Assembly: GCA_030374765.1 (NCBI GenBank)
Contig: JARGXX010000075.1
Span: 992,001 to 1,056,000, forward strand
DNA length: 64,000 nucleotides
Source of the DNA: Agarophyton chilense
Lineage: Eukaryota; Rhodophyta; Florideophyceae; Gracilariales; Gracilariaceae
Direction of reading: 5' to 3'
The notes under the pieces were generated by a model. The model had not been told where the DNA came from. It did not search any database and worked only from the letters and a program-made list of their open reading frames with translations. Below are positions 20,599-64,000 of the stretch, piece by piece. Both the position numbers and the translations under genes were made by a program. Positions within the stretch are counted from its first letter, which is position 1; each line of letters begins with the position of its first letter.

Positions 20599-20603
20599 CC
20601 CCT

Positions 20604-22210: not shown

Positions 22211-22225
22211 TCTCCCCCTCCTTAA
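22211..22225 (-). other. Gypsy-B polypurine tract
   Basis: On the minus strand, aaggagggggaga leads directly into TGTAGAGCAA, the start of the 3' LTR. This fixes the element's orientation. Confidence 0.8.
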
Positions 22226-22252
22226 GACGAGGAAGAACATTCCGAGCTGCGG

Positions 22253-24148: not shown

Positions 24149-24204
24149 TTCCGCCTTCGGGCAATTCTAGAGTCCATAGCTTGGCGACAATAGTAAACTT
24201 CTTA

Positions 24205-24362
24205 TATTTGCATAACTTCTTTTCTTCTTCCTTCCTAGGATCTTAACTTCTACTTCTTTTCTTCTTCATTCCTTCTTAGGATCTTCTTCATCTTCTGCCC
24301 TTCCTAGGGTCCAATCTTCTTCTTAATCTTCTTCTCCACTTCGTGGGTCTTCTTTTCCTTTT
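24205..24362 (-). other. Long purine-rich tract in Gypsy-B (minus strand)
   Basis: About 150 bp made almost wholly of ctt/ttc repeats on the plus strand, so GA-rich on the element strand. It lies just past the stop of the antisense ORF and before the chromodomain remnant. It could be an internal purine tract or a 3'-UTR of the antisense gene. Gypsy-C has a shorter purine-rich spacer in the same place (about 55260-55410). Confidence 0.6.
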
Positions 24363-24539
24363 TCATCATAAACTGTCCCGATAACCGGTGCTGTGTTCCC
24401 CGGTTAACGGCGCTAGGCCCAGGGCCAGTAGACATTCCCTTTCAATACGTGTTCTTCGGGATACTCTCCTCAATTCCTCTTCAGAGGTCCAACATCTTCC
24501 TCACTTCGAGGTCGCATCCACACCAGTTCCCGTGATGGC

Positions 24540-24830
24540 TTACCCGACTTGGGCACGATCCAGATTTGGAGGCAAGGTTACCCAAGCGCGTCGGTGATAG
24601 GATAAAACCTTAGACCTCGGAAGGTGCTCAATGGGTTCCACTGTATCCTCATCAGGCGAGAATCCGTACCATCGGACTTGGTAGCGAACTTCTCCCTCGG
24701 GGGTGTAGATGTGACGCACGATGCGATCGATAACGAATTCCTGCGGGTACACTTTTCCCTGTTCGGGCTTCTCTTCCATCTTGGAACGCTCTAGTTCCCT
24801 TGAGGGTGTCAACGTAGGGTCTAGACACAC
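24540..24830 (-). pseudogene. Chromodomain remnant of Pol in Gypsy-B
   Basis: A 96-codon segment whose middle reads as a chromodomain (YQVRWYGFSPDEDTVEP near residue 48), like the Pol C termini of Gypsy-A and Gypsy-C. In chromoviruses this domain guides integration to certain chromatin. Here the integrase that should precede it is absent, so it is most simply a leftover at the edge of an internal deletion. Confidence 0.75.
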
Positions 24831-25114
24831 CCCCGTGGGTTCTTTTCCGTGTTGCGAGCGGGTCTCAGAACTTCGTCCAAACGGCGCCGAGTGGCCTGTG
24901 GGCTACGTTGTAACTTCCGTCTACGGAGTCAAAACGGCCCAGTTTTGGGTTCTTCTTAAAGCTGAGATCTTCCCGATAACAAAGGGGTTCTTAGATTTCG
25001 TGACGGTTGAGAAACCGCGACGCGGTAGCGTCTCCAATCTCAGGGAAGTAAGACTTCAACGTCAACCCGAGCTGCGGGGACGAAGGTTGCTCTTGTGCAA
25101 CACGCCGTGCGACG

Positions 25115-25214
25115 GAGGCGGTTTGCACGACGGTTGGTCGTCAGAGCCTTTTGATTGGCTCAGTGAGGCGGTTTGCGCGACGGTTGGTCGTCAGAGCCTT
25201 TTGATTGGCTCGGT
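25115..25214. repeat. 50-bp tandem duplication in Gypsy-B
   Basis: Units 25115-25164 and 25165-25214 differ at two positions. Each contains gattggct, an inverted CCAAT-type box, and the pair is followed by a TATA-like cataaat at about 25232-25238. The region between gag and the chromodomain remnant (about 24831-25379) otherwise shows no ORF or domain. Confidence 0.8.
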
Positions 25215-25379
25215 GCCATTCGACGTGTGCCACATAAATGCGCGGGCGCCGGTTGCCACTCCGCAAGCGGATGTGAGGTGGCGCTTTTGGCACGCGCTAG
25301 CACTCTCCTGAGCTGTCCCCGACGGGTCTCACTCATTTCTTCCCCATTCCTTAGGGTTCCAGTGTCTCCATAGGAGTTC

Positions 25380-27921
25380 CTATTCCCATTCCATAACGGA
25401 GAGCCGAATTTGGTCAACCTCGTCGTCGAGATCTTTCCCGTGCAGGTCCGCTGACACAATTCGTTCCCGAGAAAGCGGGGTTTGAGTGTGCGACACCTCA
25501 GTGTCTCTTCCGCGGCGGCGGGTGATCGTCGGCTCTATAGGCGTTCCGGGTGCAGAGTTCTCCACACGACTCTCCCTAGGCGGGTTTTCGTTATCTTTTC
25601 TGACGTCGTGCTCGGCTGGGTCGGCAGTGATGTCGCTACCCATACGCTGGGGTTGTGACTTCTCTGTCGCCGGCTCGGTCGGGCTCGCCGTCTCACTGTG
25701 AGAACTAGATTCCCTGTTCGGGCGACTGGCTGACGCCGAAACATCGTCCTGCGAAGGAACTAAGTCCTCCTTCCCCTCCTTAGGCGGAGAGCCAGGAGGC
25801 TTGATTACCTCCGGTGGGGGAGTAACTCTGTAAGAGTTCGTTGCCTGGGCCCTTGAGGGAGCGGGCCCAGGTTCAGGAGTATCCGAAGTTTAGTTTTTCG
25901 AAGCGGACCCCACCGAATTCGGTGCAGCTGCCTCGAAGGGGACCGGTTGTTCCCCGTTCGCGGGTACAAGTTCTGTGTCCCTGTCAGCAAGGTGAGCTCG
26001 GAGTATCCTTTGTTCCTCATAGGACCTACTCGGGACTCGAGCTTTCTCCTCAGGGGTCAGAGCCTCATACTGAGCGATAATTCGTGAACCCTCCCGCAGG
26101 GGAAATGTGCAGTCTGGTGCTTTGTGACCACGGAGGTAACACAAATAGCAAATCAGCTCTGCCGGGTTCGGTTGTGGACGTGAATCCACGCGACGTGGTG
26201 CTGTATCCCTCCATCCGGGGCGAGAGAACCGAGCAGCGGTATTCGCAATAGGTAGCGATGCGGCTGGCACCCTCCGTCCTTGGGTATACAGCGCAGGGTC
26301 TTCATCCGTAGTCGGAGCGGATGTCGACGGCAACTCAGATGTACCCATAGATTCGGGGTTACTTCCCATGAAGTGAATATTATCATTGACCCTTACAGGG
26401 GCAGGGCCTCCTTCGAGTGACAAAGACAAGTTACCTCCATCGGCGAGGAGTGCACGTGTCGGCCGACTGTTTCGGTTCTGCCGGGCACGGAGAGTATCCC
26501 CCTCAGCCTGGGCGTACTGAACCAGTTCCAAGTAGGTCAGCTTGCGCTTCTCTTCCCGATGTCGGGCAACCAATGCCCTTATCGAGGGGTCCAAACCATC
26601 CACAAACATGGAGCATCTCTCGTAGGCGGGGAATACATTCCCGCATCGGTGAAACGCTTTATTCAAGCGAGTTGAATACACCGTTTTGGTTTCCATCGGC
26701 TTCTGCCGCGTATCCCTTAATGCAAGGATTGCTTCCTGAATCGCATTTCCAGTAGCGTATGACCTCAAGAGGTACTGCACCGCTTCGGGCCAGCACGTGA
26801 CTCCCCCTTCCGAGGCTCGGGATGATCCACGGACGGAGTTGAACTGGTCTTCAGCCATCCCCTTTAAGAAATAGGGTAATGCAACATACGCTTGCGCTTC
26901 ACTCATACCGAGGATGTCAGCCTCCTGGACGAACCTCGCAAGGAAATCGAGCACCAGAATTGGGTCTGTTCCTGTGAACTCCCTCTTCTGTAGGGTGATG
27001 CTCAGCCTTTTGATGTAGTCCTTGACCTTACCCCGTTCCGCGGGATGTTTGATCTCCCGAAGGGTTATCCAACCGGTAATAGCGGTACGATAGCAGCTTC
27101 CAATAGAGAGGATTCGTCGGCTTCAGCTCCCTTAATCCAAGGTGTTTCCTACCCTTCTTCCGGGTACGGATTGCCCCTTGAGAGGTGTAAGTAGCCTTCG
27201 ACCGAGTCGCCCGGGATGACCGGCGTTCATCTTCACTATCCGAAGATTCGGAGGACGAACTCGATGGCGAGCGATTGGGATCGGAATCCGATAAATCCTC
27301 TTGGAGGTAAACCCTCTTCTTGGACTTGCGGCGGTCCCGTTTAGCGGAGCGGTGTTCTTCGTCTTCCGAAACGTCGGGTTTATCCTTCGACGCTTCTGTG
27401 TCTCCGTCCATACGGATAATGGCCTCGAGGGTGTCCAGCCGAGCTCGGAAGCGTTCCGCTTGCACGCGGTGTTCCTCCACGAGACTCAGGTACTCCTGGA
27501 TAAAGATCCCAGGGGTACCGAAGCTTTCCAAAAGGGAGTTCACATCCTTCCTCAGGGTACGAAGGTCATCGGCGACTCCCCGCACCTGGGTGTCCTCCAC
27601 CTTGAGGCGGAGGGTAGTAACCTCCTGAAGGAGCTCGATGTGAGCCGCGTTGGCGATATCGATTCGAGTCTCCAGGCGCTGTAATTCAGGGTCGGCCCGA
27701 CTTCAGGGTGCTGCTGAGGGGGTCTCCACCACTGCAGCTGGGCCCACAGCCACGACCTCTCGAGGACCTGAAACCACTGAGGGTGCTCTCCGAGTGTCCG
27801 GATCGATACCGGAATCGTTCCGACCTTCGGGAATAGAGCTCCTCGACCTAGGCGGGGCCGGGGGCACTGAATCCGCTTGACGGTTCGATCCAGTCCTGTA
27901 ACCACGGGTAGGCGGGGTCAT
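25380..27921 (-). pseudogene. Gypsy-B Gag
   Basis: Starts at ATG 27921 (MTPPTRGYRTGSNRQ). A coiled-coil-like segment (LRTLRKDVNSLLE, about 27560) is followed by an acidic/Ser-rich and Arg/Lys-rich linker (about 27150-27330). Near 27050 the frame must shift once to continue into the capsid-like region (FTGTDPILVLDFL, YVALPYFLKG, YSTRLNKAFHRCGNVF). The zinc knuckle CYLCYLRGHKAPDC is near 26125. TGA at 27703-27705 and TAA at 25890-25892 interrupt it, and the frame then stays open to 25380 as an acidic, Ser/Pro/Glu-rich tail. Order and motifs match Gag of Gypsy-A and Gypsy-C, though sequence is clearly diverged. No protease follows. Confidence 0.85.
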
Positions 27922-28130
27922 GCTGCAGACACGACACCGAAGATTCGGGGTAACGATGAAATTCGATCACGAGATTCCCGGAGAACGGATGACGTAACAC
28001 AAAACAAAAATAAAAACCAATTCCACCCTTTCCAAAGGGGACCACTACAACAAATCTTCACGACGGTGCTTCCTCTTCCAAGAGATATTCCAACACGTGG
28101 ATGACTATCCCAAAAGTCCGAGAACGGATT

Positions 28131-28146
28131 CTAAGTCGGGAGACCA
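28131..28146 (-). other. Gypsy-B primer binding site
   Basis: Minus strand TGGTCTCCCGACTTAG, two bases from the LTR edge. Identical to the sites in Gypsy-A and Gypsy-C although the LTRs are of a different family. Confidence 0.8.
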
Positions 28147-28148
28147 CT

Positions 28149-29061
28149 TGTGGAGCAAAACCCGGCGACGGGAAGTGCTCTCAAGGTGTTCGAAGCCTTG
28201 CTCCCTGGGGGAGGCAGACTCAGAGACAGAGCCCTCCGTTCCACCCGTAGTGTGGGGTGTAACTCCCACAGGGGATTCCGGCAGTACCGACGGAGGTGAG
28301 GGGTAGAAACCGTTGGATCGGGAATGGGTATGGGTATCCCCAAGAATGGGGGAAAATCCGGCGAAGAGGAAAAACGGGGCGAGGGTCGGGCACTAACAGG
28401 CACCGGACCCGAGAACCAGAAAAGGGGCGAAACAACAAAAGAAACCCAATACAGGGGCGAAAACCTGTACTCGAAAGGAAACACAAAAAGCACGCAACAA
28501 GTAAGCAGAACCCCCACGGGGTATTGTGCACGCAGGTCGTCTGAGCGGTCCCAAGGGGGTGGTTGCACGGAACCCAAACGTGGGCACTCTCCAAGTGGAG
28601 TCGTGTCCCTACGCAGGCGTTGCTAACCAGAGCCCGTTCCGGGTTGTAAGGGCGAAACGATGGCGACGAAGAACCTCTAAAGGTATCGAAGACCAACCTT
28701 GGTTGTCATTTACTCTGAGCTTCGGACTGTCAGATCTCGCCTCCCTAAGTAGGGCCCACTAACTAAACTCTACAGTAGTGCACACCTGCTCAGGGCCATA
28801 CACGTGGAGATCCAACTGTCAGGGCCCAAAAGTCCAACGTTCTACAAATATCCGAAATTCGGTGCCAAATTAAGCCACGTGTATCACGGGGCCAATCCAA
28901 CCATGGGCCATCCGAATTTTCCCTTATAGGCGAAATATAACCAGAAAACAGTGCCACCTCAGCACACCATAGAGGGGATCATAATCATAACCCTCGGAGG
29001 GTTCAATCTTCATTCTATGAGTTGAATCTTCAAGTATCCCCTGACTGGGCGTTGCTCTACA
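28149..29061 (-). repeat. Gypsy-B 5' LTR (913 bp)
   Basis: Plus strand begins tgtggagcaaaacccgg and ends gcgttgctctaca. It is a direct repeat of 20604-22210 without the solo LTR. No target duplication follows at 29062; instead an inverted LTR copy begins. Confidence 0.92.
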
Positions 29062-30760: not shown

Positions 30761-30776
30761 CTAAGTCGGGAGACCA
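30761..30776 (-). other. Gypsy-A primer binding site
   Basis: Minus strand TGGTCTCCCGACTTAG, three bases from the LTR. It begins with TGG (complement of tRNA CCA). The implied tRNA 3' end has a C at the position pairing with G53 and a plausible acceptor strand. The same 16 bases occur in Gypsy-B (28131-28146) and Gypsy-C (48670-48685). Confidence 0.8.
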
Positions 30777-30779
30777 AAA

Positions 30780-31413
30780 TGTCGTACAATCACCTCTGGG
30801 GTATGCTACGGTGTTGTCTCGGGAGCTTAGTGACGCTAAACTGTAGGGAGCGTGTTGACGCTCAACCTTAGAAGGTAGACGTAGTAAACCTTGATGGTGA
30901 CAGGGCACCGTGAAAACCCGCAGGGGCAAAAGGCGGGGCGAATAGCCTATAACGTGTAGGTGAACAATGGTAAGCGTCGACGCGCGGGAAAGCCTGTGTA
31001 GTAGTTGAGAAAAAATGAACCAAAAGGTATAGTCGTGACCCAAGTGACGCCTTTGTTTATCAGGTTAGGATGGGGGAGGTGCAGTTACCTATATGCAGTG
31101 GACTGCACTCCCCAGATCACCCGGGAGGGGCCAGCAGGGCACGGTCTCTGACCTAGTGTCAGAGACCTGGCCAACAATGGCTACAGTGCCAGGTGGCCGC
31201 TCAACTACTGTACTAAAATACATATAATTACAATTACTATTACTAACAATTACTCAACCAGAAGGTACATGTCAACACTACACGTGGCTGACAACACCTA
31301 GATGGTAGCTCGCCCGGAGCTGCATGGCCGATGATCCCTCGCACCCATCACCTACAGGTTCAGTGTAGTATATTGACAACCTCAAAGGTCAGACCATCTG
31401 CCACTATACGAAA
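30780..31413 (-). repeat. Gypsy-A 5' LTR (634 bp)
   Basis: Same family and length as 48033-48666. The plus strand begins TGTCGTACAATC and ends ctatacgaaa. The final bases are mutated from the expected acgaca. It is the right-hand border of the left repeat block. Confidence 0.9.
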
Positions 31414-43756: not shown

Positions 43757-44174
43757 GCAAGGAAATATCCAAGCGAAGACGCCGACTGTTCGCGAGGACT
43801 GAGCCGAAGCCCCAGATTCTTTTTAGGCCACCATAAACCGATCCAAAATCGATGTCCTAGTTTTTTTCCGGCAGTGAGAAGTAGATGTTCTTGATGTCGA
43901 CTGGTTTCGTTAAGTCGGCAGTATTATTGGAGCGAACATCACCACGGATTGCTGAAGATATGAGATGTGGACGTGTTTCACCAAAGGTAATTTCGCCACG
44001 TTGCCCTCGAAATGCCAGTGTGCAAAATGCAGCCAGCTATGGACCGTGTGAGCCTGTTTTCACCCATTTTCGAGCTATTTTAACCTCCTCGCCTCGTAGC
44101 AGGTTTTATCGGAAGCTTTGCGCGTTTCAACTTCTTTCCAAAACCGAGATTGATTCAGGGGGCAAGACTGTTTG
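43757..44174. promoter_or_regulatory. Shared upstream region of ispD and the WDR55-like gene
   Basis: 418 bp between two divergent start codons. It contains T-rich runs near 43860 and no ORF of note. A bidirectional promoter is inferred from gene layout alone. Confidence 0.45.
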
Positions 44175-48032: not shown

Positions 48033-48666
48033 TGTCGTATAGTGGCAGAAGGTCTGACCTTTGAGGTTGACAATATACTACACTGACCCTGTTGGTGATG
48101 GATGCGAGGGATCATCGGCCATGCAGCTCCGGGCGAGCTACCATCTAGGTGTTGTCAGCCACGTGTAGTGTTGACATGTACCTTCTGGTGGAGTAATTGT
48201 TAGTAATAGTAATTGTAATTATATGTATTTTAGTACAGTAGTTGAGTGGCCACCTGGCACTGTAGCCAGTGCTGGCCAGGTCTCTGTCACTATGCCAGAG
48301 ACCGTGCCTTTCTGGCACCTCCCGAGTGATCTGGAGAGTGCAGTCCACTGTATATAGGGAACTGCACGTCCCCCATCCTAATCTGAGAAAGACAGGCATC
48401 ACTTGGGTCACGACTATACCTTTTGGTTCATTGTTTCTCAACTACCACACAGGCTTTCCCGCGCGTCGACGCCTACCATCGTTCACCTACACGGTATAGT
48501 CTAATCGCCCCGCCGTTTGCCCCTGCGGTTTTTCACGGTGCCCTGTTACCATCGAGGTTTACTACGTCTACTTTCTAAGGCTTAGCGTCAACACGCTCCC
48601 TACGGTTTAGCGTCACTAAGCTCCCAAGACAAGGCAGTAGCATACCCCAGAGGTGATTGTACGACA
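48033..48666 (+). repeat. Gypsy-C 5' LTR (634 bp)
   Basis: TGTCGTATAG..TTGTACGACA, with imperfect inverted ends. Same family and exact length as the Gypsy-A LTR. Confidence 0.93.
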
Positions 48667-48669
48667 TTT

Positions 48670-48685
48670 TGGTCTCCCGACTTAG
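48670..48685 (+). other. Gypsy-C primer binding site
   Basis: TGGTCTCCCGACTTAG, three bases after the LTR; same spacing as in Gypsy-A. Confidence 0.82.
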
Positions 48686-48813: not shown

Positions 48814-50944
48814 ATGGAACGACCTAAAAGGAATACGCGTGGTGCGAGCGCCCCGCCAAACCGTAAAGGTTCTAAAGGAGCCCCGTCGGCTCAACCAATC
48901 CTGGAAACCCCCGAGGGGCTGCTCCGGCACCCTCGGGACAAAACCGTAAAGGTACATGGTCCGCCGCCAATGGCAATGGAACCTCAAAGTGGAACCTCAA
49001 AGGGAGTTACCAATTGAGGTTGCAGCGGAGGAGCTATGGCCTCAGCTCGAAGAGCGAGCGAAAGCGCTCGTCACCCTCGCAGTCGGGGATGCATTTACCG
49101 TAAAGGAGAAGTCGGATACCCAGTTGATTCCGCCCTCAATGGACGTCGATGCATTTACCCGTATTGTGGTTGACCGAGCAGCTCAAGAGCTATCAGACAG
49201 GATACCTGAATCGGTGAAACAGTATCTCTTCACAGATGCTAGGGAGCATGTTTACCGCGCTGTGGAGGACCTTTGGGTCTCCGAGGGATACGCAGAATCC
49301 CGACCTACACAGGTGAACATCGCAAAGCGCATACAGTCAAGAGGTCCCGGGGAAGATAGATCTTCGAGACATTCATCTGCCACCAATTACTGGTTTCGTT
49401 CAGAAGGATACCCATGGAGGTGGTCCCAAGGACGATTCGTCTGACTCGTTGGATGAGCGACGAAGAAACCGAAAAGGGAAGAAGCGGAGGACGAAGAGGG
49501 GAAAGAATCGCGAGGATGATTCAGACCCCGACTCGTCAGACTCCAGTTCCGATACGAGTTCATCGTCGGATGATGACCGTAAAGGTAAAAAGAAGAAGAA
49601 ACCGAACAGGTCGACGTAGAAGTCGTCGAAAAACACCCGAAAGGGTGAAAAGCGATACAATAAGTCGCCCGACTCTGAGTCGGACACCAAAATGGACCTG
49701 GAGATGCACCAACCGTTGAACGATATGTTCACCAATGCGTTTGATTAACGGACTTATCGGTTGATCAACAAGTCTTCTGAGTACACCCAAGAGGTTGTTA
49801 AGAAGATTACGAAGCACCACAAGAATCTCAGCTTCCAAATAGGTGACACAACCTTCACAGGTACGGATCCTATTGCGGTGATTGAGTTTCTACAGAAGTT
49901 CAAGCTTGCATGTGACCAAAATGGTCTTTCCGAAGGCGCTGCTATGTGGCTATTTCAGTTTTACCTTTAAGGACAATCATACTACTTGCTGCAGGGTAGG
50001 CTCTACGGCAATACCTTAGCGATGGATGAGGATGGCACAGAGATGTTGGAGTCATACCCAGAGGTGGTCAATTTCTTTTTGGAAACAAACGCCACCGATG
50101 AGGTTATCCAAGAGGCTTACTCGGAAGTCCTCGCTTACCATCAAAGATCTGGGCAAAACGAATAGGAGTTTTCGCTCGCGCTTTGGAATCTGGCAACCCG
50201 TTGTGATAATGTGTTCACTACATCTAGGTTAGAGTCGCTATTTGCCGACAATGTCGACAAAGCGATCCGTTCCCAGGTACGCAATTACCTGGCCACTAAC
50301 TGCAAGGTAGACTACAATGGGCTGGCTCGATTCTCCCAGGGCCTTGGAGATATCCTTCGGCTGGGAAAGAGACCAGCCGTGCCTCCAACCTCGAAGGATA
50401 AACCGAAAAGGTCGGTCTTGGAAATTGAAGATACCACAACCTCAGAGGGTATCTCGCACCTCAAAGTACCTACAGGGACCGCTATCCACTTGGTAGCGAC
50501 CCAGGGGCGGTTCTCGAAACCTTCGACGGTAGGAAATTGGTCGTCAACGCGTACACCACACTCGGTACAATCGCCGCCGAGTGCGGTGAGCTCGCATAGG
50601 ATGCAGAGAGCGAGCTTCCATAACTCGCCACCCACATCCTACGCCACTGCCCCTACAAAACAGGTTTCGAGGCCCCCCTCAATGGTAACGCGAGACCCCC
50701 AAACTGGAGGCCTCGTTTGCTGGTTTTGTCTCGCGACAGACCATTTGGCAAACAATTGCAATATCTTACCTCCAGGGATGAGAGAGCAGTTGATTCAGGC
50801 TCGCATGCAGAATCACCAACGCCTCTATGGGTCTTCAACGCAAGCACCAAATAGGTTCCAACCCCGTACACCGGTACAGGTCAATACCATCAAGGAAACA
50901 CCAAACTTGGACTAAACCCCTCCCGTACAGGAAGAAAACACCGA
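48814..50944 (+). pseudogene. Gypsy-C Gag
   Basis: Start at ATG 48814 (MERPKRNTRGAS); an upstream in-frame ATG lies at 48742. A short 13-bp duplication near 48985 shifts the frame where Gypsy-A stays open. The helical segment (MDVDAFTRIVVDRAAQEL), the acidic/Lys-rich linker, capsid-like region and zinc knuckle CWFCLATDHLANNC (near 50725) follow in several frames. Stops at 49617-49619 (TAG) and 49968-49970 (TAA) are shared with Gypsy-A; TAA at 49746-49748 is private. Gag ends near 50915 and the protease begins in a different frame near 50945. Confidence 0.88.
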
Positions 50945-53900
50945 ATGGTTGGCGAAATGGCCGAACCCAACCTGCAATTGGAAGGCCAATCGATACCCAG
51001 AACCTTGAAAGTGGAAGAGAACACGTCACAACCAGGTCCGGTTTGTCATATGAAGTACAACAACTATAAAGTACGTGCTTCAATGTGTTTCTCCGAGCGC
51101 CTTGCGGTTCCGGTCACCTGCGTGCTGGATACGGGGGCCGGCCCAAACTTCCTGAACTCCCGCGTCATACCTGAGGCGGTACTTCGAAACTTGAGCCGAC
51201 CTCCCGACAACAACCCGCTGGTGGATGCAAATGAGCGCCCATTAAACCTTAGAGGTATGCTCACCACTGTGGTGCAGCTCGGACATTTCAAGGTAAGACT
51301 TCAATTCTTTGTGGTCGACCGGTTACCAACAGACTGCCTACTAGGTACGATCTTCATTGACAGACATGTCAAAGCAATCCTTTCTGGTTCCCGTACCGTC
51401 GCCCTACGTCACGGGGGACTAATTGCCATTTTAGGTCATACGGAAACCAAACGGGGATGGTTCGTCAAACCGAAAAAGACGATATCCACCGAAACGGTCT
51501 CCAACAAAGTGCGCATTACCAAACAGGTTGTTATCCCACCAATGCACCAAATATTGGTACCGGTGTCGTGTGCGACCTCCAGGCTGGTCATACTGCAAAA
51601 CATCCGAGGTTAGCACATCGACACCTCAGCTTGATGGCCAACGGGATTGTCGACAACATCCCAAATCAACCCTTTAAGGTGTGTCTCAGTAACTTCAGCA
51701 GTCACGACGTGAGGTTGCCTAAAAATACCAATGTTGGCATGGCACTACCGGCACCACAAGGTGATTTCACCGTAGCTCACACTGATCTCGGCGAGGTCGC
51801 CTTCGATAAGGAAGGGGGGTGCACGAATGCGTTCACAACCACAAAGGTATCGATAAACACCAACTTGGAATCAAAGATAACCGATAAGGCATCGGTAGAC
51901 AAAGAAGAGGAACCTGACCCTAAGAGGCAATGGCAAGCTACAGTCCAGATCGGTGAAGATAACGGCAAACTGCGAGGCCGTATTCTCGACCATCTAGAGG
52001 AGTTTGAAACCATGTGGGCAGGCTATCTGGGCCAAATTAAGGCCACACAGCATCGCATCGAGCTCCTCCCTGACTCGAAGCCAATTTATTAGCAACCATA
52101 CCGTGCAGGTCCGAAGTCGAGAGAAGTAGAACTCAAAGAAGTGGAGCGAATGCTCCGAGAAGGGGTAGTTGAACCAGCCAACTCGGACTGGGCTAGTCCC
52201 GTGGTTCTTGTTCAGAAGAAAGGGGATAACCATATGAGGTTTTGTGTGGACTACAGGAGTCTCAATAGCGTGACCATCAGGGATTCGTACCCGATACCTA
52301 GAATGGATGAGTGCATCGACTCCTTCGGAGATGCGCAGATATTACCACGTTGGATGCCAATTGTGGTTATTGGCAGGTACCCGTAGGTGACGAAGATCGA
52401 GACAAAACGACCTTCAAGTGCCATACTGGTTTGTCTCGCTTCACGCGGATGCCGTTCGGGTTACGCAATGCTCCAGCCACCTTTCAAAGAGCGCTGGACA
52501 TCATCCTTTCGAAGGTTAATTGGACAACCGCCTTAGTATACATCGATGATGTAATCATCTCTTCCAGATCGGTAGAAGAGCACTTTGCACAAGTACGCAC
52601 CGTACTAACACTCCTAGCTGAGGCGGGGGTGACGCTGAAGCCACGCAAATGCGTCTTCTTTACCAGAACAGTTGAATACCTGGGACACATCATAGGCCCT
52701 GGTACCCTAGAGGTTGCGCCAAGCAACATTAGAGCCGTACAGAAGGTCAAGTTGCCACAATCCCAGACAGACGTACGATCCTTTATAGGTTTCTGTAACG
52801 TCTATCGTCGCTTCGTGAAGGGATTCGCGAAAATAGCGGCTCCCCTCAACAAGAAGCTCCAGGAAGGTGAACCTGAACGGTTTGAGAATCTATCGAACGA
52901 AGAAATGGACACCTTTGAGGAATTGAAACGAGCGCTGTTGTCGCCGCCAATCTTAGCGTTACCGAAAACAGGTCTACCATACACGCTGGATACAGATGCA
53001 TCCCATGCCCAAATAGGTTGTTGTCTCATGCAGGAGAAGCACAACGGAGGCAAATTACCTATATGATACTGGAGCCGCGCTGTGAATGAGGCGGAGCAGA
53101 ACTCACGGTAATCAAGAAGGAATGTCTAGCAGTAGTGTGGAGCATGTTGATGCTCCGTCCATACCTTCATGGTGAGCGCATTACATTGCGCACGGACCAC
53201 GACGCCTTAAGGTGGATCCTCGGACTCGCAGACGCGTCTGGTAGACTTGCCCGTTGGAGGTTGAGACTCTCGGAGTTTGAATACGACTTACAGTACCGTC
53301 CAGGTATTAAGCACAACATAGCTGACGCCATGTCACGCTTACACACCTCAGGGTTAGAGACAGAACCGGTGGACGATGATATCCCTTGCTTTTTGGTGTC
53401 ATCAAACCAAAATGGTACCGGCAAACACCTAGAAGGATGTTGGGACTTACCTGAAGAAGGTGCTTTGCGGAACACCGACATGGCAATGCAGATACTGACC
53501 TTAGAGGAAACGAACGTCATGCCCGTAACCCGAGAGGAATTTCTACGAGAACATGCCCAGGATGCGTATTGCAGAACCCTGGCTGACCAAATTGGTTTCA
53601 AAGGATTACCGTTCGATGTGGACCACAATGGGTACATCGTGAGAAGGTCAACCTTTAATGGTAGCCTTCAAAGGGTGGTTCTTAAGGCACTGCGCCCGAG
53701 AGTCTTGTATCTCGCGCACTACCCGCGACTATTGGGACACCCTGGTGCCACCAGTATGTATTACACCTTTAGGCAAAGGTTCTATTGGCCTCATGTGGCC
53801 CATGATGTCTATAACTTTGTAGGTCAATGCGAATCTTTTGTTAGTACCCGCGGTGGTATTCGGAAGCATCGAAAGTACCTCAAGCTGTTTCCAGCAGCGG

Positions 53901-55170
53901 GTCCACTGGAGTTTGTTGCGATAGACCTTCCAGGACCACTTCCCAAGACCAAGAACGGGTATCAGCACATTCTAGTGATCACCGACAGGTTCTCGAAGCT
54001 CATGAGAGCGGTACCTTTAAAGGAGACGAAGTCAACCACGCTGGCGATCGCGTTCCTCAACAATTGGGTCTACCCGTATGGTGCAGCACTGTACATACTA
54101 ACCGATAACGGTTCAAACCTGGCATCGAAGATCTTCGAAGCAGTCTGTAACCTCTTGGGCATTAAGCATTATTTCACTACTGCCTACCACCCGCAGACGA
54201 ACGGACAGGTCGAGCACTTTAACCACACATTGGTATCAAGGCTACGACACTATACGGAAGAGCACCAAACTGGGTGGGATGAGCTGGTGCAACCGCTCAC
54301 CTACTACTATAACCTTCAGGTACACCGGTCAACGCAGACCACTCCCTTCGATTTGGTTCTTTCGCGACACCCCCCAGGTATTGTAGTGCAGGGAGATCAT
54401 ACCACCAGCCCTGCAGCTGGCGCACTGACCCCTGCCCAGGTCAAGCGGAATACCCTTGTGAGGTTGAGGAGGGCTCTTAAACATGCAGAGAGCCGCCTCA
54501 CTGCAGCCGAGAAGCGGTACAAGGCCGACTACGACCGTAGGGTAACCAAAGTGGTTTCTGTATCCTCGGGACAATATGTCTACATAGACAACCCACCTTC
54601 AGGTAAAATACCACGACTGGGCGATGAAGCAGACGATGAAGCTATTGACAGAGATATCAATTCGAAGCTCCTACCCAAATCAGTGGGATCTTATAAGATA
54701 TTGAACGCATTAGATCACACCATTATGGTTGACCAAGTTGGAATACCGAATACGATATCAATTGACCGTATTACGGTAGCACCTGAAACGGTTCAACATC
54801 GCATGGAGGCGGACACCTTAGCCCGAGAGCCCAGAGGGGTAGCTCTGCCCACTCGACCCTCGGAGGACCCCACCCCAATTGAGGTGAATGACGAACTACA
54901 ACGGGATGATCCGGATTACAACCCTCTAACAGGGACGGAAATGGAACCTCACATGGTAACAGCGGGAGCTCCAGACCCAGCTCCCACAAAAGAAGCTCCC
55001 AACTTGGAACATATGAACCCTCGAGGTGGCGTTTCCCCGAAAGATCAGGACCAAACCTCAGAGTAATTTCTCGTTGACCATATTGAGGGCCACACGCAAA
55101 TCTACAATGGTCTGAAGTACACCGTCAGGTGGTACGGCTGGGGCCCAGAAGGGGACACCCTCTAACCCCC
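50945..55170 (+). pseudogene. Gypsy-C Pol
   Basis: Protease CVLDTGAG (near 51120), RT from SPVVLVQKKGDNHMR (52195) through YIDDVI (near 52540), RNase H (TLDTDASHAQIG near 52985; LRTDHDALRW near 53190), and integrase in one open frame from 53135 to 55066: zinc finger, LTDNGSNLASK, and HPQTNGQVEHFNH with the catalytic Glu. One zinc-finger Cys is Phe (CESFVS against CESCVS in Gypsy-A). The chromodomain (YTVRWYGWGPEGDT) follows a TAA at about 55064 in the same frame. Other breaks: a frame change near 51590, TAG near 52090, a lost base near 52342, TGA near 53065 and a second frame change before 53135. Confidence 0.9.
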
Positions 55171-55403
55171 AGCCGCAATACCCCCACATTTCCGTATCAG
55201 ATATTGGCGCCGTCGCAAGGAGCCGATGCCTGCAGACGGCTAACCTTAGAACTTCGTGGTACTCAGGCCTAAGGAAGGGGGAGAAAAGACGTCGTTTTCC
55301 GCAGAAGGGGGATGCATATGCGTGTCAGATTACCTACAAGGGAGGGCACGAAAGAACAACCAAATGTAACAGCAGAGGAGACAAGAAGAGACAGCAATTT
55401 ACT

Positions 55404-57865
55404 TTAAGAAGGACCTGTCGGTTTAGGAGCAATGGAACCAGGAGGACCCGTGTTATTGACCATCCAAGGAGGAAAACTTGCAGAAATGCTTGGAGCCATC
55501 GACCTAGGAGGAAGCGAAGGAGCGGCAGCCCCGCGGCTGGGGAGAGGAGTGGAAACCAAAAGCGGATGAACGAAAGGAACCACCGGAGCGGGTTGCGAAG
55601 CCGCAAGGTTCAAGATAGCACCTAGAAGGGGATCCGTCAAAGGATCAGATGGCTCAGCAGCAGAGACGCTTGCCAGATTTGCAACCTGACGGGTGGCCAG
55701 TTGGTACATGTCGAACTGAAACTGATTCCAAAACTCACCAAGTTGGTCCAGCGCCTTCATGTATTGCGCATGGCGCGGCAGCAAACCTTCAAGGAGCGTT
55801 GATGCAGCAACCACGGAGGTAGGCCCAGCCCCCTCAAGTTGGTGACGCAAGACTAGCGAATTCGAGCCAGCAAACTGACCACGGCCGAAAAATCCATCAT
55901 AGGTTGAGGCGGAGGACGAGCAATACCCGCCAACAGAGGTCGAACCGGACCAGAAACCCGCGAGGAGCTCAGTTGAGTAGGAGTCACACCCGTAGGGATA
56001 GGCCACTTACAACCTTGAGGTAACGGCTCGGACGGGAGGGGACCAGCATAACGACCAACTGGTGTTTCCCCAGTACCTTGATAAGGTTCGGGGCTCGCGG
56101 GAGCTCCATAAATGGGAGGCTCCCGGGATAATATTGGGCGTGGCGAGGCACAATCTTCTAAGTTGCGGGATCGAAAGCCTCCCAACCTTGATGGTAATCC
56201 CAATGGTAATTCTTGCTCTGCTCGAGATACGAGTCCAAATCCTTCACTGTATAGTCGGTCCCCTCCACGATGTTCTCGTAACCAAATCGGAAAGTATCCT
56301 TGGCAACCCTCGGAGGTATGAAGAAGATGCGCCCTACAGGTTGAACTCCATCTCGGTATATATCAGAGTCGGGGTTGTCGCAATCCCAAGCGATACGGTA
56401 ATGGGCGGCCTCCAGAGCCAGGATGGCAACCAACACGGTCCTCTCCGAGAGCGCAATCGACCAAATGAGGTAATACCGCTCTAGGATCCGGGAAATCTGA
56501 CTCGCAAAGTACGCCAAAACCGGCGGAGTGGCCACGCTCAGCGATAACGGAACCTCATAGGACCCCCACCACTCTGGTCAAAACACGTACCAATCGCGTC
56601 TGCCCTTCGTAGGTTGTGAGAAGTACTCGACGTTATGAAACATATGCATAACGCGAGTGTAAGAGTTGCGAGTGCCAACGCGACTCTCTGCGCTGCATCC
56701 TCGCCCCACCTAATACGGTCAGCCCAATTGATAGTGGTGAAAGGCCGATTCAGGGAAACCAAGTCAGGGGAAACCGGAAGGTAAGTCTCCGGAATGGAAG
56801 GGTACTGGCACACTTGCACCACCAATCGACGGTAATAATCCAGCTCCGGTTCGATGCGCACATACGGTAAGTCGCTCGGATATGTCGGCGGGATGAAATA
56901 CCTCAAAGATGTATGACGCTGCCGACTCTGGTAACATTCCAGTCGACCCTGACGAGGTTGAGACTCTTGGTCCCGTTTCTTCAAAAGCAATAGAATGGAG
57001 CGAAGGAGCTCGCAGTCCTAACGGGACAAACCCAAGTAGGTATCCAATTATGGTCTGGTAAGAGCTGCCGGCAGTGACGAATTCCCCACCGCCACAGGCC
57101 AATCGTGCTTCAACAGGTCATTGTTCGTCACCTGTTCGAAGGTAATACGAAAAGGTCCATACTGCCTCGTCGTCCGGTTCGCCGCACCGAACGCGAGATT
57201 GTCAGCCCATTGGTTTGGGTCGCCGAAGGAAGTCCACCATTCCGTTGGTACGGGTCACCCGGAGTCCCAAGGGAGAACTGAGTCGCAGGGACAGGCATGC
57301 TGCGAAACCCAGTGTTTGTAGGCGTTCGTGAAGTCGAGCGAGTCACCTTCTTGGTAATACCACCGCATCCATGGCCACGAGATGGGCCGCTACCTGACAT
57401 GGTTGGGAAGGCCGTAGCTCGACCCGACGAACGAAGAGATGAATCGACCTCCACCGCCGCGGTGAACACCAGCGGGTATTCATCCTTCTGAAGTAGAGCC
57501 TCCTCGGTCCGTTCTGAGGAGACCGCCAACATATCCAACCTTTCCGGAAGTACCGACACTGACCTTTCGGGTACAACAGTGGCCGGCGTGCGGTCGCGAG
57601 CGGGTCCAGATCTTTGAGGTATTGTGTAACGGCACCAATCCGACCTTAAAGGCATAACTGCAGGGGTATCAATCCCCTTGGAATCTCCGACTTCTTGAAC
57701 CTCAATGATAACCGACATCTCACGTCTTTCGAGCGCTAGTGGTGCTTGTGCGGACGACCCACCCCTTTGAGGTATCGGTGACGAATCCACGATGCGGCGC
57801 GAGGTGCACCGACGTGGTACCGAATGGGTTCGAACGCGTGCGTGGAGGCAGCGCGATCCTGTCAT
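55404..57865 (-). pseudogene. Antisense ORF (aORF) of Gypsy-C, frameshifted
   Basis: Several long minus-strand segments, opposite to the element's own genes: 57128-57865, about 57040-57260 in another frame, 56538-56990, 56158-56535 and 55404-56006. The segment at 56158-56535 has the same order of features as the middle of the Gypsy-B antisense ORF: an Ala-rich LEAAHYRIAWD helix, an IPP turn, and a final HWD after a Leu-rich stretch. The N-terminal part is Ser/Thr/Pro-rich and the C-terminal part Pro/Ala/Gly-rich in both. At least three frame changes show decay. I do not recognise the family. Confidence 0.6.
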
Positions 57866-58286
57866 TGCCTTGAAGGTAAACCGGAATGCGAAACCGGAAA
57901 AAGGTCGCGTACTTACCGACGGGGCCGCTCAACACCAATAAGGTCGCACAACCGGAAGCTTCCACCACAGACCCGGGCCAACACGTCAATGGTTGTATCG
58001 ACACAAACTCAGGCCCCACCGGCGCCACGAGGCAATCCTTACAAGGTAGACGAAACCTGAAAGGTCGACAAGCCAGGAAACCTTCAGGGAAAAGCCAGAC
58101 AGCACGGTTACGTTCGCGACGCCGCCAATTAAGGGCAGTACTACCTGAAGGGTTGTCGAGCCGTGGGACGACCAGGCGGGACGGCGCTGCGCAGGGAACT
58201 AGGAGGGAACTGAAGTTTGAGTAACCTGGAAAAGGTGAGACACTAACTTGGTTAGACAGGGAGGCTATGCGGAAGCAGAATCGCAA
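57866..58286 (-). other. Upstream part of the Gypsy-C antisense region
   Basis: Open on the minus strand (57720-58286) but low in domain signal. It continues on the far side of Gypsy-E (63606-63862), where no clear start codon of the antisense ORF can be fixed. It may be its 5' UTR or a promoter region. Confidence 0.35.
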
Positions 58287-58291
58287 GCAAG

Positions 58292-58617
58292 TGTTGATCG
58301 AGTGCGATGCGTGGGCGGGATCAGACGAATGGCCAGAGGCAGTCTGAGCAAAAGCAAGGAAAGAGCAGGCACCAAGTTCTCAGAGAGGTCTCTCTCTGAG
58401 GTTGCCCCCTTCCTCCATATAGCTCTGTCTGGAGGTTGGCTTATTTATTGTGTTTCTGGGTCGCTCTATTATTCTTCTGTAGGCCACCCACGAATGCGTG
58501 GGTTGCGAGCGCCATTTCACCTCTACTCTGAATTGGTAGTTCCTTTTCGGGTGACGCTTGGTTCCCGATGCAGGTGCAATGGTTTCACGAGATTCCAGAA
58601 TGGTCGTAGCATCAACA
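58292..58617 (-). repeat. Gypsy-E 3' LTR (326 bp)
   Basis: Direct repeat of 63275-63600, with roughly a dozen differences by eye. The minus strand carries a TATA-like aataaataag. Confidence 0.92.
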
Positions 58618-58694
58618 ATCCCCCATAATCAGAAAGGTTTGTCTGGTTATTGCAAATCGATGTTACGTGCCATTCTGCGCTGCTTTTGGGTTCC

Positions 58695-61600
58695 AGACGA
58701 TAGAAGCGCTTCAATATAGTCCTTCACCAGCACCGGCACGTCATGCTTCAAAGATTCTATTGAGACCCAATCCTTTTCCTCATTGCTAAAGCCTTTCCAC
58801 TTCACGAGTATCTGGATCATACCAGCGCATCTTCGGATGTCCTGAAATTCTTCGATTGTAAGCAGCCCGTTTTCTTGATACGCTAAATGGTCCTTGACTT
58901 CCTGAGTGACTTAAAAATATTTGTTACTGAAGAACTTCACCCGGCGCCCGTGTACCCACTCCTTCTTTCCATTCGACAAGTTTTCAACTTCGAAAACGTA
59001 GTTGTCTCGGCAGAGCGTGACAAGAAAAGGTCCGTACCACTTGAGATTAATTTTAGACCGAATGTGTTTCTGTAGAACACCGCGAAGTACGAAGTCTCCT
59101 TTCGCAAAATTTGCGGGGCTTATGCCAGTCTTACGGTTATGTGCGTCGACAGATTCCTTCCTCTGCATTCTAGCCCTCTCCGCGCAATCCCTATGCATCT
59201 TAGAGAGCGATGTTTGTAGCCTTTTCACCTCGATAACTGCCTTTCTACGTTCGCTTTCCATAAACTTGACGTTCTCGACATGATAGTTTTTGACAATTAC
59301 CGAAAGCGGAGAGTACTTTGGGTGAATTGTTCAGGTCAGACTGTATGAGAGATAGTACTGATGGCCAAGCTGTTAGCGGAAGTTGAAACTCGGACAATGT
59401 TGCCCGTGCAGTTCTCAAGATTTCACGGCAGTAGACCTCCACGGATCCATTGCTCCACGGGCAGTACGGCAAAGTGAAATGGTGACGAGCCTTCAAACCG
59501 TCGGATATCTGTTTCACGAGATGGTTCTTAAAGTGGCTTGCCTTGTCCGATACCCAGCACTTTAGCACGCCGAAAGATGCAAACCAGTCCACCAAAATAG
59601 CTGCTGTGGTTTCCGCGTCTGCTTCAGCTGTGGCCTTAAGCCACACGTATCCTGACAAGTCATCCTTGACGATCAAAACATAAAGAAGATCGCCCTCTCC
59701 TTTATTCATAAAACAGTAGTCGAAATGAATCAGTTCGTTTGGTGTGCTAGCGTGCATGGTGTGTCCAAGAAGCCCGGGCACTGTAGAACCAGACTCGGTA
59801 GCAATGCAGTGAAAACAGGATCCAACAAATTTCTGAATATCCTCACGGAGTTTTTTCCACCAGAAGTGCTCAGATATGGATGCAATAGTTGGCTCGAATG
59901 CCCTATGTCCTCCTCTTCTTGTGTGTGAAGCTATCAAAATTCGAAGACGAAGTTCATGATCAGTGTCCGGTACCCAGATTCGCCCCGCAGCCAGTCTCCA
60001 TGGGCGATTTTCCTTTGAAAGCGTTTTCGGGGCTTTAGCGGCGTAGATTGTCTGCGAAGAAATGATATCTTTCTCCGTAGGCCAGTCAAAGTCCTCGTTG
60101 ATACTAGGACTGATTGGATCAACCATCAGCGCGCTTATACGTCCTATTCTTGACGGGGCTACTTTTCTTGTAGGCTGAACGGGCTATCGGGTCAGCATGT
60201 TGGCCCATACGTTCTTCTCTCCTGAAACATGTTCGATCATGTACCTGAATGCGCTAAGTTTCAAATCCCAACGCATGAGTTTGTTCTCTGTATGTCGCGC
60301 GATGCCAGGGTTCTGTCCGTAAGGGTCATAGATGTACGTACATAAGATTGGCGTGGTCTGTGAATGTTCAAGTAGTTCTTCTGGCAGTTAGGTAGTCCAG
60401 TCGGTACATGGCCTCGACGATCGCGTTTCATTCTTCCTCTGGGACGCTCCATCTCTGGGAGGAACCCGTGAAAGCTCCAGACAAAAAAACACATGGGTTC
60501 GTGCCTTTGATCTTCTATCGGTTTGCTTGCATCCTCTTCAGCCGATTCTGTCAAGATAGCCGCCCAGTGCGAATCGGAAGCGTCCGTGAACAAACATGTC
60601 CTGTAGCCTTCTTTCGGGAGAGAGAGTTTGGTAGCGGCTGCCAGTTGAGCTTTTACTGTATCGAATGCGACAGTGTGATCGGTCCCCCAAGATTCACTGA
60701 TGCGAATCTTTTCTACTGCTTTCTTTGCTCGTTTGCCGGACTTTTTGTACGCGCTTTCCAGCAAGTCTTGATGTGGTTGGACTGTCAGGGGAAAATTGGA
60801 GATAGAGTTCCGCATCCAGTTAGCGGCACACAGAAGCTTCTGTAGTTCGCTTGCCATCTCTGGCCTCCGCATATTGAGGAGGGGCTCAAGATTTCGTAGT
60901 TCGAAACGAACCCCTTCTTCTGATAAGATCCTGCCACAGAACTTCACTTCCTTGCAGGAAAAACAAGACTTAGCGGGGTTGACCTTGAAGCCTACTTCCT
61001 TACAGACAGTTAGGAAAGCTTCAATGCCCTCGAGCAGGTTTTCCTCGTATTCCGCGTACATCAGAAAATCATCTAACCACTATATCATACGCTTTACCCT
61101 CTCAGCGAAGTGTTCACTGGTACCAGACTGGAAATGATTCCCAGAGTCTGTTCCCCCTTGCAGTGTCTTCGTCGGGGCATAAACTCCGTCTGGGGTTTGA
61201 ATTGCCATGATTTCCTGAGAGACAGTATCGAGCGGTATTTGCCAATAGCCATGCGTGAAATCAATGTTCCCAAAGCACTTGCTTTCGCTACAGTCTTGAA
61301 GCATGGACTCCAGGTGAGGCATCGCTGACTGCAGAGGGAGCGTTCTGGCATTTGTTCCTCGCAGATCTACGGTGAACCGTAGTTTGTCTGTTCCAGGCTT
61401 CGGTACCGCCAGTGCTGGGCTGGCCCAACGTGCATTGGGATTCTTGTACTTAGCTCCAATTTTTTCCAGTTGCTGTACTGTGTGTCGAATAAACACCCTC
61501 TGGTTTGGGCCATAGCGACGCTGTGCACATCGAAACGGTTGTGCGTTTGGCCTTAGCTTCACAGAAAGCGGTCTTACCTTCGCAGGTTGATCCGGGCCAA

Positions 61601-62582
61601 GCTTGATCCGAAAAAAATCACGATGGCTTTCAAAAAGAGTTTTAAGCATTCCGGTTCCTTCTGAAAATATTCCATTGCTCCTGGTATCTTCGACTGCCTT
61701 CCGCATTGCCTCGTTGATAGATTCATCTGAATCGACTCCAAATCCGGCTTGCAGGCACTCCGGTGGCTCTATCGGATCGTCTTCGGCCTCTTGGTAGCTC
61801 CGCCTCTTGAAGACTGTCGAGGAAAGTCAGACAGTCTTTTCTCTCAGTTCCTTTCCTGACATACCATCAGTAGCTGTTCCTACCTCTTGGAGGTGTTCTC
61901 CGAGATCGAATCCAATGGCTTTGAGCAATGGTATTCAAAGCAGTACTTCTGCCATGCCCTCATCCACGACCAGGAATTCCACGTCCCGAATGCGTACGGG
62001 TAAGCCGGTGTTTGGTAGCACGATGGTTAGCGCCAGTTGAGTTTTTCACGACGCTGTGGGGAAACTTGCCCGGTTTTCTCCCTTGAGTGCTACCTCGAGA
62101 ATCATTGGCTTCTCGAACCGTTCGAACGGTGTACTGGGGCGTTGTTTCTGAATCCTCTCGAATACTGTTCGCGAGATTGTAGAAAAATCGGCTCCAGAGT
62201 CCCCGAGAGCCACTTCTTTCACATTGTTGAGCAGTATAGAGTACCGTCCCTCATATTCATTCGGATTAGTGTGGGAAACTGAACGTACGGACACAAGCTT
62301 CGTTTTCTTGTCTCGCCGCTTTTTGTTGCCAAACAGCTTGTTCAAAAGTTCGTTTTCCTTCTCCTTCGGGGTGATGGGGCATTTTCTGATAGGGCGGATG
62401 TCATCACAATCGTCGTTGAGAACATGGTTTGTCCCACTCCCCTTGGATGCCTTTCTTCTTTGAAGTGTCCGATTCCTCTCTCTTACCAAGGCGATCGTGG
62501 AGAGAACGGCCATTTTTCTGCTTTTTCTCCGGTGGTTCCTATGCACGACCAATCTGCATGTCTCTTTTGTGTCCGTGACCAT
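58695..62582 (-). pseudogene. Gypsy-E Pol
   Basis: Protease LGDSGADFSTIS (near 62195) starts the frame at 62582, overlapping gag by 44 bp in another frame. RT/RNase H (61080-61706 and 60261-61061) shows FGNIDFTHGYWQIPLD, LQGGTDSGNHF, WLDDFLMYA and LFTDASDSHWA. Integrase (59245-60126) has the HH/CC finger (CFHCIA), FDYCFMN, VSDKASHFKN and a CPWSNGSVEVYCRE segment with the catalytic Glu. The chromodomain (ILVKWKGFSNEEKDWV) is near 58790. A TAG at about 61079 falls between RMI and WLDDFL, immediately before the catalytic aspartates. Other stops lie near 61830 and 61930, and frameshifts near 60390 and 59260. Confidence 0.9.
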
Positions 62583-63117
62583 GTTTGCGTTTGAGCTTCA
62601 ACCCAGCAGATTGGACGGCGTGCACTTGATCTGCAAGTGATGCCAAGGTTTTCGCGAAGAAAGTAAGATTTCCCTTCTGTTCTGCGGTCCACATGCCCAT
62701 TTGGACCCTGACGAGCTGTTTAAGTTCGGAGGGTTCGAGTTTGTGTACCAGTTTCATCACCTGTTGCTTATATCGGTCTTTCTCTGTGATAACTTCCGAA
62801 GGGTTGTGTTCGTCGACAGCAGTTATGACGTCAAGCACAAATTGTTTGGCCGTTCCAGCTGGATCCCTTGGGAGCAACTGGTATTTCACTCCACCGATTG
62901 CTTCCTTAACTCGATCGTTCAGATCTCGGGAGGTATGAGCCATGCGGGGGTCGAACCATTCCTTGACGGCTTCCTCTGTTGCTCCTTCCACCCTTGCAGC
63001 CCCTGCTATCCTACCTAGGATGCAACGGCTGTGCAGGAGTTTCGGCTTGATGCACTGCCGAACGGACGCAGCCTTGATCTTCTGATTGTTCTGCCTGCCT
63101 GCGTTGATGTCGTTCAC
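62539..63117 (-). CDS. Gypsy-E Gag (192 aa)
   Basis: Intact ORF downstream of the 5' LTR. It is helical and charged (e.g. KQQVMKLVHKLEPSELKQLV, FAKTLASLADQVHAV) and ends in a His/Lys-rich tail (KRKHGHGHK). No CCHC zinc knuckle is visible; the basic His-rich tail may bind RNA instead. Assignment rests on position and on the following protease. Confidence 0.65.
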   Translation of the reverse strand: MNDINAGRQNNQKIKAASVRQCIKPKLLHSRCILGRIAGAARVEGATEEAVKEWFDPRMAHTSRDLNDRVKEAIGGVKYQLLPRDPAGTAKQFVLDVITAVDEHNPSEVITEKDRYKQQVMKLVHKLEPSELKQLVRVQMGMWTAEQKGNLTFFAKTLASLADQVHAVQSAGLKLKRKHGHGHKRDMQIGRA

Positions 63118-63274
63118 ACGCTCAATTTAAGCTGAATAATTTGTCTCGAATCGTATTAGTTCCGGTTGTCTTGCTTTCGCCAGAGTTGGAGCCTGTATAT
63201 TGATAACCAGTCCGTACGTCGACATATTTTCCCTCGCAACGAATCTGTAAGATTTACAGTCCCACAAAGCGCTT

Positions 63275-63600
63275 TGTTGATCGACTGCGATGCGTGGGCG
63301 AGATCAGACGAATGGCCAGAGGCAGTCTGAGCAAAAGCAAGGAAAGAGCAGGCACCAAGTTCTCAGAGATGTCTCTCTCTGAGGTTGCCCCCTTCCTCCA
63401 TACAGCTCTGTCTGGAGGTTGGCTTATTTATTGTGTTTCTGGGTTTCTCTATTACTCTTCTGTAGGCCACCCACGAATGCGTGGGTTGCGAGCGCCATTT
63501 CACCTCTACTCTGTATTGGTAGTTCCTTTTCGGGTAACGCTTGGTTCCCGATGCAGATGCGATGGTTTCACGAGATTCCAGAATGGTCGTAGTATCAACG
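63275..63600 (-). repeat. Gypsy-E 5' LTR (326 bp)
   Basis: Starts tgttgatcgactg and ends agtatcaacg (final base mutated from a), then TSD gcaag. No clear primer binding site could be fixed inside it. Confidence 0.9.
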
Positions 63601-63874: not shown

Positions 63875-64000
63875 TGTCGTACAGTGGCAGAAGGTCTGAC
63901 CTTTGAGGTTGTCAATATACTACACTGACCCTGTTTTTGATGGATGCGAGGGATCATCGGCCATGCAGCTCCAGGCGAGCTACCATCTAGGTGTTGTCAG
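63875..64000 (+). repeat. Gypsy-C 3' LTR (first 126 bp)
   Basis: Matches 48033-48158 with about five differences; the rest lies outside the window. Confidence 0.9.

Follow-up and report, generated by a model that had tools for sequence, protein, structure and literature searches.

Segments of an open reading frame (ORF) lie antisense to gag-pol in Gypsy-C, a long terminal repeat (LTR) retrotransposon in a 64,000-nucleotide stretch of the red alga Agarophyton chilense (assembly GCA_030374765.1, contig JARGXX010000075.1, positions 992,001 to 1,056,000 of the forward strand), here called the window. When gene, orientation, ancestry and selection are taken jointly, these segments are very probably the remnants of a real protein gene of a red algal Ty3/Gypsy clade, as read from sequence comparison. 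Homology, position and congruent divergence establish, at the level of sequence, that the gene goes back to an ancestor shared by at least four families (B, C, E and F), and substitution patterns likewise reveal protein-level selection in families B, C and F while copies were active.

Homologous antisense genes in Gypsy-B and Gypsy-C

The genome searched was a 79.8-Mb assembly of 135 contigs. An antisense ORF of 842 amino acids (aa) from another genomic copy of Gypsy-C (L042) was mapped by tblastn to the minus strand of the window, from 57928 to 55410, in five segments of 78–88 % identity. Because these segments sit in different frames, the window copy is broken. The five-piece mapping also explains why a preliminary description, made from the letters of the window, had spoken of segments; the interval that it gave (55404–57865) is correct to about 60 bases at the upstream end. 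It had also placed a counterpart in Gypsy-B, on the opposite strand of the window, and B and C do lie on opposite strands, with the ORF antisense to gag-pol in each:

55407..57928, minus strand: Gypsy-C antisense accessory gene, broken; matches the 842-aa L042 ORF nearly end to end
22226..24148, plus strand: Gypsy-B antisense accessory gene; two in-frame stops in the window copy

The proposed correspondence between the two genes was borne out. Long antisense ORFs of B and C matched each other by blastp with a best expect value (E) of 1.4e-11 (22–26 % identity over about 250–277 aa). Profile-profile alignment, the check that had been suggested, gave E 3.4e-6 and a probability of 87.7 % (hhalign, 16 B against 5 C antisense sequences). 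When the B and C ORF regions were compared in six frames against six frames, the antisense/antisense combination alone was significant (E 1.9e-11; next best 0.084); this match scored 56 bits, and none of 500 shuffled B sequences exceeded 28 bits. The preliminary description had named a lack of similarity between the window pieces themselves as evidence against its claim; these pieces match at E 3e-5 (B 23270–23581 against C 56577–56197).

The two elements are also related elsewhere, with 28 % identity in gag (E 2.7e-25), 29–35 % in the chromodomain region, 53 % in reverse transcriptase (RT) and 39 % across RNase H and integrase. The window self-comparison showed no mutual LTR match, in agreement with their description as different LTR families. 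An origin of the antisense ORF from B gag or pol was considered and rejected; no match exceeded 44 residues and none was better than E 0.26.

Occurrence of the gene in families E and F

A gene of long standing in the lineage should also occur in elements related in pol, and this prediction was then tested. Eight integrase loci were compared with B and C pol, of which six were B-like (50–57 % over the longest matches), one (L005) was about 40 % identical to B and C, and one (L006) resembled Gypsy-D, a further element of the window, at 24 %. Three of these loci (two B-like, plus L005) were taken for analysis of their downstream regions, and a homologous antisense ORF was found in all three, namely in two copies of family E and one copy of family F. 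The E ORFs were 35–42 % identical to B (E 2e-75 and 3e-66) and weakly similar to C (6e-4), while the F ORF was 24 % identical to C (E 4e-13 and 3e-13). Profiles built from three families recovered the fourth in every case (B 5e-41, C 6e-13, E 1e-42, F 4e-8), compared with a best shuffle of 0.41 in any run (200 shuffles each). Thirteen residues were invariant in nine aligned antisense proteins.

An integrase tree (8 rows, 152 columns, two of the rows D-type) placed B, E, C and F together against the D type (100/100), with B joined to E (95/99); B is nearest to E in integrase and in the antisense gene alike. Among the matches listed, at least 11 of 150 for the C antisense protein and at least 5 of 82 for the F protein followed one of 150 listed integrases at no more than 5 kb downstream, always in antisense and never in the same orientation; for the B protein, none of the 107 matches listed was near a listed integrase in either orientation. 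These results uphold the view of the antisense gene as a long-standing part of the lineage: four families carry it in the same place and orientation, and the integrase tree groups them. Location between pol and the 3′ LTR in antisense orientation, presence in many copies of a family and a conserved protein also mark the published class aORF-3R, as set out in the available portion of PMC7264820, and all three were found here.

In Pfam searches the chromodomain was above the cut-off in B (2.8e-8) and E (3.4e-8) and below it in F (8e-4). A survey of chromodomain elements listed at least 150 places in the genome; among them, the matches at G000:C128:807275, C21:173757 and C68:2317981 lie in open frames of about 1800 codons, which are perhaps gag-pol of further Gypsy families.

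Open frames and selection on the protein

Copies of the antisense gene (30 of B and 30 of C) were fetched with the best protein score first. The ORF was open over 636–650 aa in 16 of the 30 B copies and over 842–861 aa in three of the 30 C copies. In first-order Markov DNA (500 trials each) the longest open runs were 328 and 335 codons, compared with the 650 and 842 observed. Sense-strand runs reached at most 299 and 401 codons in the B and C sets, and a sense gene is an unlikely source of the codon pattern described below, since no sense frame was open across the region in any of the 30 + 30 copies.

Differences between copies were concentrated at third codon positions, with an excess ratio of 1.75 for B and 1.22 for C over the 30 copies of each (0 of 2000 permutations in both). 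In the conserved core the ratios were 1.92 for B (3 of 2000 permutations) and 1.49 for C (0 of 2000), and the B flanks showed no third-position excess. Because fetching by protein score could itself favour such a pattern, the ratios were also computed outside the stretch used as search query, where they were 1.78 for B and 1.16 for C (0 of 2000 each). Ratios of nonsynonymous to synonymous substitution (dN/dS; Nei–Gojobori method, NG86) were 0.31–0.41 for F (three pairs, copies chosen for being open), a median of 0.57 for B (28 pairs from 8 of the 16 long copies) and 0.60–0.64 for C (three pairs).

The region is by its nature antisense to the element's own transcript, and it could be the antisense RNA that matters, by pairing with genomic RNA and tuning silencing or copy number, with the ORF incidental. 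An RNA role of this kind has been put forward as an alternative for other elements (PMC7264820, in the portion available). However, amino-acid homology that is specific to one frame, a third-position excess in B, C and F and frames of 636–861 codons would not be expected of a non-coding RNA, and this explanation appears unlikely.

Features of the antisense protein

The antisense protein is about 520–860 aa long, with a conserved core of some 250 residues that includes conserved W, Y and R between arms rich in Pro, Ser and Ala. The features that the preliminary description had listed as shared were right in part: IPP and WD are common to B and C, and IPP is missing in the aligned E and F proteins. 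No CxxC motif occurred in the B and C proteins examined. Five antisense proteins of the four families were searched against Pfam, in which the best match had an E of 0.16; NCBIfam returned none at E 0.1 and the best PDB match was at E 0.53. None of the five matched TRP28 (PF04195) at E up to 5. A genome-wide search with PF04195 was also empty, as was its control, so that this search proves nothing by itself.

The location between pol and the 3′ LTR is the usual place of env, which raises the question of an env-like gene, coding for an entry or membrane protein, in reversed orientation. The ORF is antisense to gag-pol in the examined loci of all four families, and no Pfam envelope match was obtained. 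The most hydrophobic 19-residue stretch scored 0.94 in B, which thus has no hydrophobic stretch, and 2.09 in C, so that no hydrophobic segment is common to the two. An env-like gene is accordingly very improbable.

A captured host gene fragment or other passenger, spread without a role of its own, is another alternative. Extra ORFs in LTR elements are known to arise by gene capture (PMC7264820, in the portion available); stops interrupt many copies of F, and a stop is present in one E copy of the two. Against this, the gene holds the same place and orientation in four families that have diverged to about 39 % in RNase H–integrase, it shows selection in three of them, and no relative of it was found in Pfam, NCBIfam or PDB. 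The genome matches listed fill with element copies, so that a host homologue may still exist. A passenger is rather unlikely, and a gene belonging to the elements is the preferred reading.

Several observations nevertheless weigh against a conserved protein gene. None of the domain searches gave a match that hints at a function, and AlphaFold2 applied to three window pieces reached a predicted local distance difference test (pLDDT) score of 37. Many copies, including both in the window, carry stops or frame breaks, and the sense run of 401 codons in a C copy also tops the Markov maximum. Fetching the best scores first, and choosing open copies for the dN/dS pairs, leans towards conserved proteins, a lean of which excluding the query stretch removes only a part. 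The third-position excess of C is missing in codons 600–700 and beyond 800, and the single E pair shows none (40, 25 and 27 differences at positions 1, 2 and 3). In pairwise comparison without a profile, B and F match weakly (E 0.04) and E and F do not match (2.9); the membership of F therefore rests on C and on the profile.

Structure of the elements

The location of the antisense segments follows from the other features of Gypsy-C:

48033..48670, plus strand: Gypsy-C 5′ LTR, about 638 bp; direct repeat of 63875–64000 and its continuation past the window
49803..50912, plus strand: Gypsy-C gag region, broken; Gypsy-B gag matches 49803–50759 (28 %, E 2.7e-25)
52311..55063, plus strand: Gypsy-C RT, RNase H and integrase; ORFs 52311–53063 and 53090–55063, by Pfam
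54929..55213, plus strand: Gypsy-C chromodomain-like end of pol; tblastn with the Gypsy-B chromodomain ORF, 29 %, E 2.4e-6
63875..64000, plus strand: start of the Gypsy-C 3′ LTR, which runs past the window to about contig position 1056512

Pfam identified RVT_1 (1.1e-25), RT_RNaseH (2.8e-15), Integrase_H2C2 (1.4e-11) and rve (5.4e-12) in Gypsy-C pol, and this RT–RNase H–integrase order together with the LTRs identifies a Ty3/Gypsy element. The sequence of the 3′ LTR past the window is 93.6 % identical to 48058–48670 over 613 aligned bases. In the window self-comparison the LTR start at 48033 recurs at 63875 and, inverted, at 31411–31414. The chromodomain-like stretch of a second C copy matched the Gypsy-B chromodomain at E 2.4e-8, and Pfam returned no chromodomain in the equivalent stretch of two sister C copies; the C assignment, taken from similarity to the B chromodomain, is therefore to a putative chromodomain. 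Pfam matches, LTR comparison and the L042 mapping confirmed that the antisense segments lie where they had been described, between the chromodomain region and the 3′ LTR, downstream of RT, RNase H and integrase.

A second Gypsy-C copy, 93–94 % identical, is present on the minus strand (14929–20604 and 29981–31414), split by the stretch that bears Gypsy-B. It ends at 14929, and its antisense region is therefore outside the content of the window.

The features of Gypsy-B, apart from its antisense gene, are as follows:

20599..29061, minus strand: Gypsy-B; LTRs 28144–29061 and 20599–22210, repeats 98 %
25383..27702, minus strand: Gypsy-B gag plus residue of the pol C-terminus; gag 28 % to C gag, E 2.7e-25
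24540..24902, minus strand: Gypsy-B chromodomain ORF; Pfam Chromo 2.8e-8

The window copy has lost most of pol. C pol matches nothing between 22210 and 28149, where RT, RNase H and integrase were looked for, and 25383–25889, at the low end of the gag region, matches the end of a 1444-aa pol ORF in a long B copy (L070) at 93 %. The L070 ORF contains RVT_1, RNase H, H2C2 and rve, with protease at just E 0.19, and its closest solved relative is Ty3 (7q5b, E 9.2e-109); this pol identifies Gypsy-B as Ty3/Gypsy. Because such pol-bearing copies exist, the window Gypsy-B is a deletion form. Among the matches listed, at least 35 pairs of B gag and antisense ORF had the expected order and opposite strands; one pair within 12 kb shared a strand. 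The spacing over the 35 listed pairs was 6.17–6.36 kb in 25, 4.7–5.5 kb in five and 2.2 kb in five, with the window copy (2.2 kb) among the last. The idea of B as a wholly pol-less family was rejected, as the short form accounts for only five of the 35 listed pairs and 25 are long enough for a whole pol.

The Gypsy-B LTR at 20599–22210 is interrupted at 20716–21400 by a foreign repeat of about 690 bp (20712–21401 in the repeat comparison), which occurs also at 4380–5069 and partly at 1–385 (94 %) and is perhaps a Copia LTR. A second, inverted Gypsy-B LTR abuts the upstream LTR at 28149–29909, forming a near-perfect inverted repeat (96 % over 1768 bases), and 29909–29980 repeats the LTR edge 22139–22210.

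A third element is nested in the 3′ part of Gypsy-C:

58292..63600, minus strand: Gypsy-D, chromodomain element with its own LTR pair; Chromo 5.7e-6

The repeats at 58292 and 63275 were considered as Gypsy-C LTRs and rejected, as they belong to Gypsy-D. Its LTRs (58292–58616 and 63275–63599) are 96 % identical with GCAAG at each flank, and other Gypsy-C copies break at 58291. The chromodomain ORF of Gypsy-D stops about 30 bases short of its LTR, too close for an antisense gene to fit between them, and the window copy therefore lacks one.

Other observations in the window and genome

A gene for IspD, of the methylerythritol phosphate (MEP) isoprenoid pathway, was found on the minus strand (ORF 42866–43822, E 1.4e-57); its stop-to-stop ORF has 94 residues ahead of the domain, which would leave room for a plastid-targeting peptide. 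Between 34349 and 42683 lie two single-frame ORFs that overlap head-to-head by about 60 bases, one of 1550 aa (minus strand, weak coiled-coil matches) and one of 1249 aa (plus strand, RAB3GAP2_N 2.7e-18). Of 13 phycobilisome-linker matches in the genome, seven were on contig C39 and six on six other contigs. Three of the linker matches on C39 are repeated 185,684 bases apart, as if the plastid genome had been traversed more than once. Taken with IspD, these linkers point to a red algal host; a fungal host, considered at first, was rejected on the same grounds. Identical or near-identical matches on contigs C40, C46, C47, C54 and C55, and on C13, C109 and C110, suggest redundant contigs.

Possible expression and role of the gene

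The antisense gene reads away from the 3′ LTR, and its transcript would begin in or near that LTR. The first Met of the Gypsy-B ORF (22292) lies some 80 bases from the LTR edge (22210), and owing to this short gap a promoter inside the LTR would be the simplest source of an mRNA. The product may be a soluble accessory protein that serves its element in trans, such as a regulator or a factor that counters silencing. By analogy with proposals made for plant elements (in the available portions of PMC7264820 and PMC11963269), a regulatory or anti-silencing role is the leading candidate and is put forward tentatively. A fuller proposal is more doubtful, namely that the red algal gene arose independently of those in plants and fungi as a new protein family served by a bidirectional 3′ LTR, that its product would be a trans-acting nuclear factor which counters silencing or steers integrase, and that pol-less B copies would keep gag and the antisense gene because both are wanted in cis.

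That red algae also have a gene of this type, carried by at least four families and showing measurable selection on its protein, suggests that such genes answer a recurrent problem of Gypsy elements. The algal elements provide a fresh case for testing what antisense genes do, and Gypsy-D, which shares the genome but lacks the gene, provides a built-in contrast.

Comparison with known antisense genes

The brtn gene of the Boty-like elements of Botrytis cinerea is reportedly to be credited to Zhao et al. 2011. Like the algal gene, it runs antisense to a Ty3/Gypsy element in the interval from pol to the 3′ LTR, according to the available portions of PMC7264820, PMC8365987, PMC4227169 and PMC5987419, and Boty resembles B and E in having a chromodomain in gag-pol (PMC4227169, portion available). 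It differs in its fungal host, and its likeness to the algal protein is one of description only. More widely, accessory genes in this position and orientation are recorded from flowering plants and from Botrytis/Sclerotinia, with no function described in the portion of that source available (PMC7264820).

The preliminary description had suggested a link with plant Tat elements. This link is not supported by the comparisons made, as the elements live in a red alga, chromodomains above the cut-off are present in B and E, and the antisense proteins do not match TRP28 (PF04195). Retand elements, whose lineage shares with the algal elements the presence of some non-autonomous members, are non-chromoviruses with a TRP28 domain, in contrast to the chromodomain-bearing B and E and to the algal proteins, and TRP28 is reported from flowering plants only (PMC11963269, in its available portion). 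Descent from one very ancient antisense gene, shared with the Tat/Retand elements of plants or with Boty (brtn), would account for the similar position and orientation (PMC7264820 and PMC11963269, portions available) and, in the case of Boty, for the chromodomain shared with B and E (PMC4227169, likewise). The failure of all five algal proteins to match TRP28 at E up to 5 argues against it, and such common descent seems quite unlikely.

The antisense ORFs of maize Grande (gene23) and of RIRE2 occupy the same place as the algal gene and are likewise shared between families and species; GENE23 is reported to localise to the nucleus, and a promoter upstream of gene23 drives transcription (PMC7264820, portion available). 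They belong to plant elements and were compared with the algal gene by description only. A literature search below full-text level turned up no algal antisense ORF of LTR elements. There is good evidence for the ancestral origin and past selection of the algal gene, and the algal case adds a protein family with no match in the databases searched, in a new host group, to the known class of antisense genes.
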